Translations under genes and position numbers: made by a program
The notes under the pieces: generated by a model
Told to the model about the DNA's origin: nothing
Seen by the model: only the letters and a program-made list of their open reading frames with translations
The model's database searches: none
Shown here: positions 21,509 to 46,675 of the stretch, piece by piece
Layout: each line of letters begins with the position of its first letter
Position numbering within the stretch: position 1 is the stretch's first letter
Source: Solirubrobacteraceae bacterium
GTDB lineage: Bacteria; Actinomycetota; Thermoleophilia; Solirubrobacterales; Solirubrobacteraceae
DNA length: 57,624 nucleotides
Assembly (NCBI GenBank): GCA_024711025.1
Contig: JANJTP010000044.1
Coordinates: forward strand, 1-57,624
Reading direction: 5' to 3'

Positions 21509-22471
21509 ATGAACGTCCCGCAGAAGATCCTGCTCGCCGCGCCGCGCGGCTACTGCGCCGGCGTCGACCGAGCCGTGCAGGCCGTCGAGCGCGCGCTCGA
21601 GCTGTACGGCGCGCCGGTCTACGTCCGCAAGGAGATCGTCCACAACAAGCACGTCGTGGAGCAGCTCCGCGGGCGCGGCGCGATCTTCGTCGACGAGCTC
21701 GACGGGACCATCCCCGAGGGAGCGATCACCGTGTTCTCGGCGCACGGCGTCTCGCCGGCGGTCCACGCCGACGCCGAGCGGCGCGGGCTTCGCACGATCG
21801 ATGCGACCTGCCCGCTCGTCACCAAGGTCCATCGCGAGGCGGTGAAGTTCGCCTCCGAGGGCTACACGATCATCCTCATCGGCCACGACGGGCACGAGGA
21901 GGTCGAGGGCACGATGGGGGAGGCCCCCGAGTCGATCGTGCTCGTCGAGACCGTCGAGGACGTCGAGCAGCTCGAGGTCGCCGACCCCGAGCGGCTCGCG
22001 TACGTCTCGCAGACGACTCTCTCGGTCGACGAGACGCGCGAGATCATCGGCCGCCTGCGCGAGCGCTTCCCGGCGATCGTGGGCCCTCGGACCGACGACA
22101 TCTGCTACGCGACGACCAACCGCCAGGCGGCGGTCAAGCAGATGGCGCCGCACTGCGATCTCGTGCTCGTGATCGGCTCGCGCAACTCCTCGAACTCCAA
22201 CCGGCTCGTCGAGGTCGCCCGCGACCACGGCGCGGACTCGCACCTGATCGACAACGAGGAGCAGGTTCGCGACGAGTGGCTCGAGGGCGTGAAGGTGCTC
22301 GGCATCACCTCGGGTGCGAGCGCGCCCGAGGAGCTCGTCGAGCGGCTGGTCGCGCTGTTCCGCTCGCGGGGCACGACCGAGGTCGAGGAGTTCGAGGTCG
22401 TGCAGGAGGACGTGCGCTTCATGCTGCCGAAGACGATCCGCCAGGCGATGGCGGCCACGCCCGGCGCCTGA
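21509..22471 (+). CDS. ispH: 4-hydroxy-3-methylbut-2-enyl diphosphate reductase
   Basis: Last enzyme of the MEP isoprenoid pathway, reducing HMBPP to IPP and DMAPP with an oxygen-sensitive iron-sulfur cluster. 320 residues. The three cluster cysteines are in [10 protein letters not shown] (Cys16), [11 protein letters not shown] and [11 protein letters not shown]. The substrate site shows [17 protein letters not shown] and [11 protein letters not shown]. It is transcribed from a leaderless promoter, and its stop codon forms half of a palindrome shared with the convergent CoA-transferase stop. Confidence 0.97.
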
Positions 22472-22490
22472 GCGGCACAGGCCCGCTCAG
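22468..22490. terminator. Bidirectional hairpin made of two convergent stop codons
   Basis: CTGAGCGG (22468-22475) pairs with CCGCTCAG (22483-22490) across a 7-base loop. The TGA of ispH and the TGA of the CoA-transferase on the other strand are symmetric parts of the stem. No T-tract. Confidence 0.5.
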
Positions 22491-23620
22491 CTGCGCAGCC
22501 AGGCGCGCAGCTCGTCGTCGTGCTCGCCCAGTCGGGGCGGGCGGTGCTCGGCGACGACCGGCGTGCCTTCGAGGCGCAGGGGCGAGCGCACGCTGCGCAC
22601 GCCCTCGAGGTCGAGCAGCGGCTCGAGCCCCAGCCGCTCGGCCAGCGCGAACGCCTCGCCGACGTCGTTGACCGGCCCGGCCGGCACGCCGGCGGCGTTG
22701 AGCTTCTCGGCCCAGGACGCGGCGCTGTCGCGGACGAAGGTCGCCTCCAGCTCGGCGGTCAGGGCCGCACGGTGCGCGACGCGGTCGGCGTTCGTCGCGA
22801 AGCGCTCGTCGGCGGCCAGGTCCGGCCGCTCGATCGCCTCGCACAGCCTGCTCCAGATCGCGTCGTTGCCGCCGGCGATCGCCAGGTCGTGGTCGGCGGC
22901 GGCGAACGTCTCGTATGGCGCGATCGAGGGATGGCGGTTGCCGCGGCGGCGCGGCACCTCACCGGTGTTCGCGAACGACGAGCCCAGGTTGAGCAGGGCG
23001 GCGAGCCCGCTGTCCATCAGCGAGACCTCCACCCGCTGGCCCTCGCCGGTGTGCTCACGCGCACGGAGCGCCGCAAGGGTGCCGACGGTCGCGTAGAGGC
23101 CGGTGATCATGTCCACCAGCGCGGTGCCCGGCTTGATCGGATGGGAGTCGGCCTCGCCGGTGATCGACATGTAGCCGCACATCGCCTGCACGAGCAGGTC
23201 GTATCCCGGCATCGAGCGCGTCAGCTCGCCGGAGCCGAACGCGCTGATCGAGGTGTATACGAGTCGCGGGTTGCGCTCGCGCAGCGCGTCGTAGCCGAGG
23301 CCGAGCCGGTCCATCGTCCCCGGGCGGAACGACTCGAGGACCACGTCGGCCCGCGAGCACAGCTCGAGCGCCAGCTCGTGGTCTGCGCCGTCCCGCAGGT
23401 CGAGCGTCAGCGATCGCTTGTTGCGGTTGAGTCCGAGGTAGTACGTCGAGCCCTCTTCGACGAACGGCGGGCCCCACTCGCGCGTGTCGTCGCCGGTGCC
23501 CGGCCGCTCGACCTTGATCACGTCGGCACCGAGGTCGCCGAGCGTCTGCGAGCAGAGCGGGCCGGCGAGCACGCGGCTGAAGTCGGCGACGACGAGGCCA
23601 TCTAGCGCTGTGGCGGCCAT
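22487..23620 (-). CDS. CoA-transferase family III (CaiB/BaiF) protein
   Basis: 377 residues, one family III domain. Moves CoA between carboxylic acids; the substrate is not predictable. Signature features: N-terminal GLVVADFSRVLAGPLCSQTL, GDLGADVIKVERPGTGDDTR, LNRNKRSLTLDLRD, and the active-site Asp in VDMITGLYATVGTLAAL. Length is slightly short of the usual 390-410 but no domain is missing. Its ATG at 23620 lies only 27 bases from the divergent phosphoesterase start, and both appear to be leaderless genes using overlapping -10 boxes. Confidence 0.92.
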   Translation of the reverse strand: MAATALDGLVVADFSRVLAGPLCSQTLGDLGADVIKVERPGTGDDTREWGPPFVEEGSTYYLGLNRNKRSLTLDLRDGADHELALELCSRADVVLESFRPGTMDRLGLGYDALRERNPRLVYTSISAFGSGELTRSMPGYDLLVQAMCGYMSITGEADSHPIKPGTALVDMITGLYATVGTLAALRAREHTGEGQRVEVSLMDSGLAALLNLGSSFANTGEVPRRRGNRHPSIAPYETFAAADHDLAIAGGNDAIWSRLCEAIERPDLAADERFATNADRVAHRAALTAELEATFVRDSAASWAEKLNAAGVPAGPVNDVGEAFALAERLGLEPLLDLEGVRSVRSPLRLEGTPVVAEHRPPRLGEHDDELRAWLRS

Positions 23621-23628
23621 GGCGCCGC

Positions 23629-23638
23629 AGGCTACCCT
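23629..23638. promoter_or_regulatory. Overlapping divergent leaderless -10 boxes
   Basis: On the plus strand TACCCT (23633-23638) ends nine bases before ATG 23648. On the minus strand TAGCCT (23634 down to 23629) ends eight bases before ATG 23620. The two hexamers share the same TA step, so one melted site would serve both genes. Confidence 0.55.
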
Positions 23639-23647
23639 TCCCGCGCC

Positions 23648-24745
23648 ATGTCGCGGACGCTCGTGATCAGCGACCTGCATCTCGGCGCGCGCCGGCCGGT
23701 CGACGTCCTGCGCCGTCCCGAGCCGCTGCGGGCGCTGTGCGCGGGGCTCGCCGGGATCGACCGGCTCGTGCTGCTCGGCGACGTGGTCGAGCTGCGCCAG
23801 GGACCGCTGGGCGAGGCGCTCGCCGCCGCCCGGCCGGTGCTCGAGGCGATCGGCGCGGCGCTGCCGGCGGGCGCCGAGGTCGTCCTGACCGCCGGCAACC
23901 ACGACTACGCGCTGGTCGCCCCGTGGCTGGCCGCTCGGCGGCTGGAGGACGCGTCGAGCCCGCTCGGGCTCGAGGCGCGCGCCGACGCGAGCATCTCCGC
24001 CGGCACCCGGGCGATCGCCGCGTGGCTCGGCGACCGGCCGCTGAGCGTCGCCTACCCGGGCGTCTGGCTGCGCGATGACGTCTGGGCCACCCATGGCCAC
24101 TACCTGGACCGCCTGATCACGATCCCGACGTTCGAGCGGCTGGCGGCCGGCGCGATGGCGCGCGTCGTCGGGCGGCTGCCCGACGACCACGCGGAGGCCG
24201 AGGACTTCGAGGCGGCATTGGCGCCGATGTACGCATGGCTCGACCAGATCGCCAACGGCCGCGCCGCGGGCGGTCGCTGGGTCAGCGGTGGCGCGACGGC
24301 CCGGGCCTGGAGGCTGCTCTCCGCCGACGGTCGTGCGCCCCTGCGCGGCAAGGCGCTGGCCGCGCTGCTGCCGCTCGGCATCGCCGGCCTCAACCTCGCG
24401 GGGATCGGCCCGGTCAAGGGCAAGCTGTCGAGCGAGGAGCTGCGTCGCGCCGGCCTGCTGGCGATGGGCGCGACGATCCGGCTACTGGGCGTCGAGGCGC
24501 CGTGGGTCGTCTTCGGCCATACGCACTGCGCCGGCCCGCTCGCGTGGATGGACGGCGCAGAGTGGCGTGTCAACGGGACCACGCAGCTCGTGAACTGCGG
24601 CTGCTGGACGCAGGAGCCGGCGATCGACACGAGCGAGCAGAGCCCCTACCGGCCGGGCCGCGCCGTGCTCCTCGAGGACGACGGTCCGCCGCGACTCGTC
24701 CCGGTCGCCGAGGACTTCGGCGAGCGGCCCGAGGCGATCCTCTGA
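23648..24745 (+). CDS. Calcineurin-like metallophosphoesterase
   Basis: 365 residues. The dinuclear-metal motifs are all present and ordered: SDLHLG (residues 8-13), LLGDVVEL, TAGNHDY, WATHGHYLD and FGHTHCAG. The family hydrolyses phosphomonoesters or diesters, so the substrate is not set; the long helical insert between the GNHD and GHTH motifs recalls UDP-diacylglucosamine-hydrolase-like and YbbF-like members but is not decisive. No membrane segment or signal peptide. The start is fixed by the leaderless promoter. Confidence 0.87.
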   Translation: MSRTLVISDLHLGARRPVDVLRRPEPLRALCAGLAGIDRLVLLGDVVELRQGPLGEALAAARPVLEAIGAALPAGAEVVLTAGNHDYALVAPWLAARRLEDASSPLGLEARADASISAGTRAIAAWLGDRPLSVAYPGVWLRDDVWATHGHYLDRLITIPTFERLAAGAMARVVGRLPDDHAEAEDFEAALAPMYAWLDQIANGRAAGGRWVSGGATARAWRLLSADGRAPLRGKALAALLPLGIAGLNLAGIGPVKGKLSSEELRRAGLLAMGATIRLLGVEAPWVVFGHTHCAGPLAWMDGAEWRVNGTTQLVNCGCWTQEPAIDTSEQSPYRPGRAVLLEDDGPPRLVPVAEDFGERPEAIL

Positions 24746-24813: not shown

Positions 24814-25563
24814 TCAGCCGGTCGGAGCCAGGCCCGGCGCGAAGGCGGTGAGCAGCACCTCGAGGTCGCCGAGCGGCCGCAGGTCGAGCACGCCCTCGGT
24901 GTGGCGATCGTGCGCGATCAGCAGGTGCGCCCCGGCGTGCTCGATCGAGCGGCGCTCGCCATCGACGGCGAGCTCGCCGGCGCCACCGGTCACGACCCAG
25001 ACCTCGCCGGCGGCGTACGGCCCGCTCCAGGCACCGGGCCTGTCGGCGCTCGGGACGACGACCAGCGCATCGCCGGCGTCGGCGGCCCGCAGCGGCCGCA
25101 GCACGTCGCGCTCGACGTCGAGCAGCTCCTGGATCGCCCGCTCGGTCTCGTCGTAGGCGCCCTCTCCGTGGTGGACGTCGACGAGCCGCAGCCCCGGCGC
25201 GAACAGGTAGCGCGCCGGCCAGCCGGCGTTCTCGTAGGCCCGCCACAGCTCAAAGTGGGTGTCGAGCACCACCGGGTGCGCGATCCCGAGCCGCTCGACG
25301 GCCGCGCGTACGGCGTCCTCGTCCTCGCCGGGCGGGAAGCCCGGGGCGTGAGCGGAGACCACGCGCAGCCCGGCATCGGCATAGCGCTCGTGCCATGCCA
25401 TGACGTAGGGCAGCGTCCGCAGCGATTCTGGGCGGCAGAAGTCCCAGAACTCCACGAGGACCGGGCGGCTGGCCTGCTGCTCCATCCGCAGCGGGGCGAC
25501 GTTCACCCAGCTGAGGCCCTTGGGGAAAGGCGGCGCCACGATGGTGTCCACCGGGGGGCGCAT
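24814..25563 (-). CDS. Thioredoxin-like (DipZ/TlpA-type) protein lacking the CxxC pair
   Basis: 249 residues. The thioredoxin-like fold is visible as PVLVEFWDFCRPESLRTLPY, then VMAWHERYADAGLRVVSAHA and GWPARYLFAPGLRLVDVHHG. In the DipZ-type relatives I know, the corresponding segment reads WxxxCxxCLRTLPY. Here both positions are Arg and Ser, leaving only one Cys one place earlier. The C-terminal 80 residues form a beta-rich domain like that of DipZ-type proteins. Disulfide chemistry is therefore unlikely. Cytoplasmic, as no signal is seen. It is divergent from a GNAT gene, and no leaderless box fits. Confidence 0.72.
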   Translation of the reverse strand: MRPPVDTIVAPPFPKGLSWVNVAPLRMEQQASRPVLVEFWDFCRPESLRTLPYVMAWHERYADAGLRVVSAHAPGFPPGEDEDAVRAAVERLGIAHPVVLDTHFELWRAYENAGWPARYLFAPGLRLVDVHHGEGAYDETERAIQELLDVERDVLRPLRAADAGDALVVVPSADRPGAWSGPYAAGEVWVVTGGAGELAVDGERRSIEHAGAHLLIAHDRHTEGVLDLRPLGDLEVLLTAFAPGLAPTG

Positions 25564-25659
25564 CGAAATCGGGGGCGGACGGTACCATCGCGGCCGCCGC
25601 GCCGGTCCGACGGCGCGCGCCGAACACGGGACCGCGGAAAAATCGCTGGAGCGCCTCGT

Positions 25660-46642: not shown

Positions 46643-46675
46643 CTTATACCAGTTCGGGAGTCGATTTGGTATAAA
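46643..46675. promoter_or_regulatory. Symmetric divergent extended -10 promoters in an inverted repeat
   Basis: TTATACCA (46644-46651) and TGGTATAA (46667-46674) are perfect inverted copies 15 bases apart. Each reads outward as TG-G-TATAA, an extended -10, giving TATAAA toward the aminotransferase operon and TATAAG toward the dehydrogenase. A GntR repressor bound here would shut both. Confidence 0.6.

Follow-up and report, generated by a model that had tools for sequence, protein, structure and literature searches.

The window, by which we mean the whole stretch of DNA analyzed here (57,624 nucleotides), contains two divergently arranged genes separated by a very short spacer. The minus-strand gene, encoding a CoA-transferase of family III (CaiB/BaiF type), spans 22487–23620 and matched CoA_transf_3 (E = 2e-123), and the plus-strand gene, encoding a calcineurin-like metallophosphoesterase, spans 23648–24745 and matched Metallophos (E = 7e-6). 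The ispH/lytB gene (plus strand, 21509–22471) neighbors the CoA-transferase gene. As shown by the Pfam matches and by the pair being kept divergent in relatives, both ORFs are real genes. The phosphoesterase start, ATG at 23648, is the earliest one available in frame once the last in-frame stop has been passed, and beginning instead at GTG 23663, the next candidate in frame, would trim the first conserved strand. Meanwhile, the CoA-transferase start, ATG at 23620, is consistent with the N-termini of the orthologous proteins. A reassignment of either start codon downstream, which the sequence-only reading had named as damaging to its case, was checked, and both 23648 and 23620 were upheld, the former by the position of GTG 23663 and the latter by the orthologue N-termini. 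In four relatives (L018, L034, L037, and L042), ispH is followed directly by the phosphoesterase gene on the same strand, with no CoA-transferase gene in this place and with the shared −10 motif described below missing; the stretch between ispH and the phosphoesterase gene has thus seen either gain or loss of the CoA-transferase gene.

The plus-strand ATG occupies 23648–23650 and the minus-strand ATG 23620–23618, which leaves 27 bases (23621–23647) between the start codons. On the plus strand, the order runs gcggcCAT, ggcgccgc, AGGCTACCCT, tcccgcgcc, and ATG. Direct reading of the window gave AGGCTACCCT at 23629–23638, conforming to the pattern ANNNTANNNT. Within it, the predicted −10 of the phosphoesterase gene, TACCCT (plus strand, 23633–23638), stands 9 bases 5′ of its ATG, and the predicted −10 of the CoA-transferase gene, TAGCCT (minus strand, 23634–23629), stands 8 bases 5′ of its own, both distances falling into the TAnnnT peak of 6–12 bases described below. 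The two hexamers overlap by exactly two base pairs, T23633/A23634, i.e., one TA step; the A four bases before this TA supplies the −7 T of the minus-strand element, and the T five bases after the first base of TA supplies the −7 T of the plus-strand element. The opposite TACCCT and TAGCCT on a common TA, at 8–9 bases from their ATGs across a 27-base gap, were hence found as the sequence-only reading had described them.

The genome sample consisted of 846 kb of the window's genome (a 3.14-Mb, 72-contig assembly), in which 764 genes were called, together with 0.4 Mb apiece from five relatives, the start codons being assigned by a simple purpose-made gene caller in which competing starts were weighed. 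In the window's genome, TAnnnT was located 6–12 bases before the start in 129 of 738 genes (17.5%), with a peak at 7–9 bases, versus only 9 of the same genes (1.2%) at a control distance of 26–32 bases, and the same start-proximal peak was seen in the five relatives (13.9–25.3% of genes). As about 17% of the genes carry a start-proximal TAnnnT over a background of about 1%, leaderless transcription appeared to be routine here, and both starts of the divergent pair fit it, since both −10 elements at 23629–23638 sit inside the leaderless distance peak. In Actinobacteria, TANNNT about 10 bases upstream of the start marks leaderless genes, which make up more than one-fifth of genes (PMC3160421), and promoters of M. 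tuberculosis carry TANNNT without a conserved −35 (PMC3898074). No Shine-Dalgarno sequence at a working distance was found within 14 bases of either ATG (23620 and 23648). Each gene of the pair thus combines a TANNNT near its start, in a genome where this signal is widespread, with the lack of a Shine-Dalgarno sequence. The distance peak, this lack, and the conservation of both elements support, as far as sequence can, the earlier claim that the starts on both sides are leaderless. In addition, no sigma-70 −35/−10 pair was found within 250 bases of the site; no −35 hexamer lies 16–18 bases upstream as in classical sigma-70 promoters, and the corresponding columns vary among species.

The divergent layout was present in 15 species, namely 14 of the window's genus (window included) and one of another genus; the relatives compared are mostly metagenome assemblies, the nearest being labeled Solirubrobacteraceae or Solirubrobacterales, which places the window in a very GC-rich actinobacterium of this order. 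Two records titled Bifidobacterium breve (L012 and L016) also carry this Solirubrobacterales locus, with 66–70% protein identity, and their species labels look wrong. The A, T, A, and T of ANNNTANNNT were unchanged in all 15 species, the core reading AGGCTACCCT, AGGATACCCT, AGGCTATCTT, AGGCTACTCT, or AGGGTACCCT, whereas at 4-fold silent sites of both genes the between-species agreement was only 0.50 on average. Invariant columns numbered 7 of 10 in the motif versus 3 of 51 around it (Fisher p = 3e-5). The distance from the minus-strand −10 to its start was 8 in 13 of the 14 other species and 7 in the remaining one, and that from the plus-strand −10 ranged from 7 to 11 among the species with the layout. 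The position serving as −7 of the minus-strand promoter is free for the plus-strand promoter, and A occurs there in just 25 of 482 ordinary leaderless promoters (5%), although it is fixed here, which argues that both directions are under selection. The −11 A and the −7 T are therefore present and selected for in both directions in 15 of 15 species. The AGG/CC bases were conserved beyond what TANNNT requires, and they could reflect an extra constraint on the core. Two further genera (L040 and L041) have this gene order but lack the shared motif, and the motif is thus not indispensable for the arrangement.

Taken together, the 27-base spacer very probably acts as a 23-bp-class bidirectional promoter, its core at 23629–23638 being read from both strands; it would serve two leaderless mRNAs, with a single polymerase bound at any moment, facing either way. 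It would thereby join leaderless starts to a promoter class that is already known, of which it is a conserved example.

We considered whether the near-palindrome AGGCTACCCT might instead be the operator of a regulator of both genes, with the promoters lying elsewhere or merely coinciding with it. Such a role would accord with the conservation of AGG and most spacer bases in addition to A...TA...T, as well as with the perfect palindrome AGGGTACCCT in one other genus. However, AGGNTACCCT occurred start-proximally just once in 846 kb of the window's genome, giving no sign of a regulon, and the motif lies at the leaderless −10 distance from both starts. Furthermore, the shared-TA layout recurred with other words. 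Among 32 divergent pairs 10–40 bases apart in the six genomes, five shared a TA (the window's pair included), where shuffling expects 0.025 (p ≤ 3e-4), and in all 5 cases in the six genomes where two start-proximal −10s came within less than 11 bases of each other, they showed an offset of exactly 0. The other four shared-TA pairs, which come from two related genomes, comprise the genes of a heavy-metal-binding protein and a polyketide-cyclase-like protein, a short-chain dehydrogenase and a sortase, a metallo-beta-lactamase-fold protein and a small protein, and a small protein and trigger factor. In another family, two genomes (L046 and L049) have the orthologous phosphoesterase gene next to a different partner, with the shared TA appearing as AGGGTAGCCT and ATCCTAGGAT; these partner genes start VSLFCRHNRFTADCPIC / VNSLFCRHNRFTADCPIC and encode a Cys/His-rich N-terminus with no Pfam match. 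The cores of other gene pairs (AGGCTACGCT, ACCCTACACT, ACCATACAAT, ACGCTATCGT, and ATCCTAGGAT) have the same A...TA...T in different words, and that A...TA...T alone is kept across pairs reflects, on sequence grounds, the need of a two-way −10 rather than of one regulator's operator. With no second start-proximal copy of the palindrome in the sample and only A...TA...T retained in other pairs, we set the operator aside as quite improbable. The recurrence also bears on the earlier remark about how striking such a tight leaderless pair is, which is fair for a single case, yet the layout recurs in this bacterial order. The annotation of Deinococcus deserti plasmid 2, used as an outside control for leaderless divergent pairs, lists zero divergent pairs less than 40 bases apart and thus speaks neither for nor against. 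Elsewhere in the window, an aldehyde dehydrogenase gene (minus strand) and a class III aminotransferase gene (plus strand) are 107 bases apart, and the spacer contains an inverted repeat, TTATACCA / TGGTATAA, at 46644–46674, which is possibly the operator of a regulator.

A promoter working in one direction only was also weighed, in which symmetry would account for the other −10 and the gene on that side would have a leader, its transcription beginning further upstream. Bacterial −10 sequences are indeed inherently near-symmetric, and much divergent transcription is non-coding (PMC10268837). A second conserved ANNNTANNNT site, ACGGTACCAT at 25579–25588, two kilobases downstream of the shared core, offers a comparison. 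It is located 15 bases upstream of a thioredoxin-like gene (minus strand, 24814–25563), and it conformed to ANNNTANNNT in all 14 readable members of the genus (window included), reading ACGCTAGCAT or AAGGTAGCAT, and in one more genus. In four other genera, its counterpart lacked the plus-strand T with the minus-strand set retained, showing that the two directions can come apart where only one is required. As this second site mostly stands 14–15 bases from the minus-strand start codon, the thioredoxin-like gene would have a short leader. The core at 23629–23638 has both key sets invariant in 15 of 15 species. Both of its distances lie in the leaderless peak, neither side has a Shine-Dalgarno-like sequence at the right distance, and no sigma-70 −35/−10 pair for transcription from further upstream was found within 250 bases. 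A one-sided promoter is accordingly very hard to credit. As for a functionless chance overlap, in which a TA happens to be flanked by A and T between two genes, the pattern is expected about 10 times per 57 kb, but the layout arose in just 0.019% of shuffles of the 27-base spacer at the same composition and is invariant where silent sites have turned over, so that this explanation has practically no likelihood left. The word ANNNTANNNT itself was not enriched within the window (5 found versus 10.7 expected); it is thus the position and the conservation that carry weight, not the word.

In the bidirectional promoter that we favor, the single TA step would constitute −12/−11 of two opposite −10 hexamers. 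A housekeeping-type RNA polymerase holoenzyme would bind the core facing either way but never both ways at once, and a conserved −35 element would not be required. The predicted products are leaderless or nearly leaderless (0–3 nt) mRNAs of the CoA-transferase gene (minus strand) and the phosphoesterase gene (plus strand), with a start-to-start spacing of 23 bp if the starts lie 7 bases past each −7 T, or 28 bp if they lie at the A of each ATG; the bidirectional type calls for opposite-strand 5′ ends separated by 7–25 bp. In the contacts with sigma region 2, T−12 remains paired, A−11 is the first base to be flipped, and T−7 is also flipped out. The two bubbles would hence open outward, each beginning at one of the two neighboring pairs of the TA, with only the duplex/bubble junction in common, and the single melted site imagined in the sequence-only reading does not fit these contacts, which leave no melted stretch shared by the two directions. 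The sequence, its geometry and conservation, and the genome-wide TAnnnT near starts are direct observations, from which we infer the use of both directions by the polymerase, the exact start sites, and the mutual exclusion. Two polymerases cannot occupy one bidirectional promoter together for steric reasons (PMC12825309), but the further suggestion that the two genes should compete or be fired alternately does not follow from this: at five E. coli bidirectional promoters, competition could not be measured at the low basal activity, and the partner was repressed only upon strong activation of one direction (PMC12825309). Competition between the CoA-transferase and phosphoesterase genes is accordingly no more than possible.

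If this reading holds, one TA step and 27 bases would carry all that two genes need in a natural, conserved promoter, with no −35, leader, or Shine-Dalgarno sequence, and leaderless genomes could pack divergent genes some 24–28 bases apart with both promoters retained. Each direction leaves the −7 base of the other free, so that point changes would separate the two promoters cleanly, and the site would for this reason make a clean test bed for polymerase competition at bidirectional promoters in GC-rich bacteria.

Bidirectional promoters of bacteria were reportedly treated by Warman et al. 2021 in Nat Microbiol. In E. coli, these promoters show three recurrent start-to-start spacings of 18, 10, and 23 bp, the 18-bp one being the commonest (PMC12825309, PMC10268837). 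The present core resembles them (Warman et al. 2026 NAR, PMC12825309) in that the opposite −10s share base pairs, and its offset of 0 gives the 23-bp geometry; the earlier statement that divergent transcription from symmetric −10 sequences is known in bacteria thus corresponds to a published class. The commonest E. coli layout of 18 bp, in which the −7 T must be followed directly by A, was used by none of the sampled divergent pairs. This base was A in just 4% of leaderless promoters of the window's genome (G000) and 1% of those of one relative (G008), being mostly C or G, and its rarity may explain, on few cases, why the 23-bp layout alone was seen. A rather unlikely extension, in our view, is that in these leaderless, very GC-rich bacteria the shared TA has been selected for more than its economy of space: the orientation of the polymerase on it would tie together the outputs of the two neighboring genes, and the 23-bp overlap would be the sole one permitted, A being avoided behind the −7 T. 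The core also differs from the E. coli bidirectional promoters in that it would yield leaderless mRNAs from conserved genes in both directions, with the start codons at or beside the start sites.

Meanwhile, closely juxtaposed divergent promoters of M. tuberculosis such as Rv1129c/prpD (PMC3898074) are similar in serving divergent genes that are both leaderless; the part of that account considered here describes no shared −10 base pairs. In the portion of the literature covered by our search, no paper on one −10 core common to two leaderless mRNAs was found. The core is also akin to the TANNNT promoters of leaderless genes in Actinobacteria and Deinococcus (PMC3160421, PMC3898074, PMC12340547), which likewise stand about 6–12 bases from the start, with no conserved −35 and a variable middle. 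Unlike those promoters, which have been described gene by gene, the element at 23629–23638 would provide one core for two genes.
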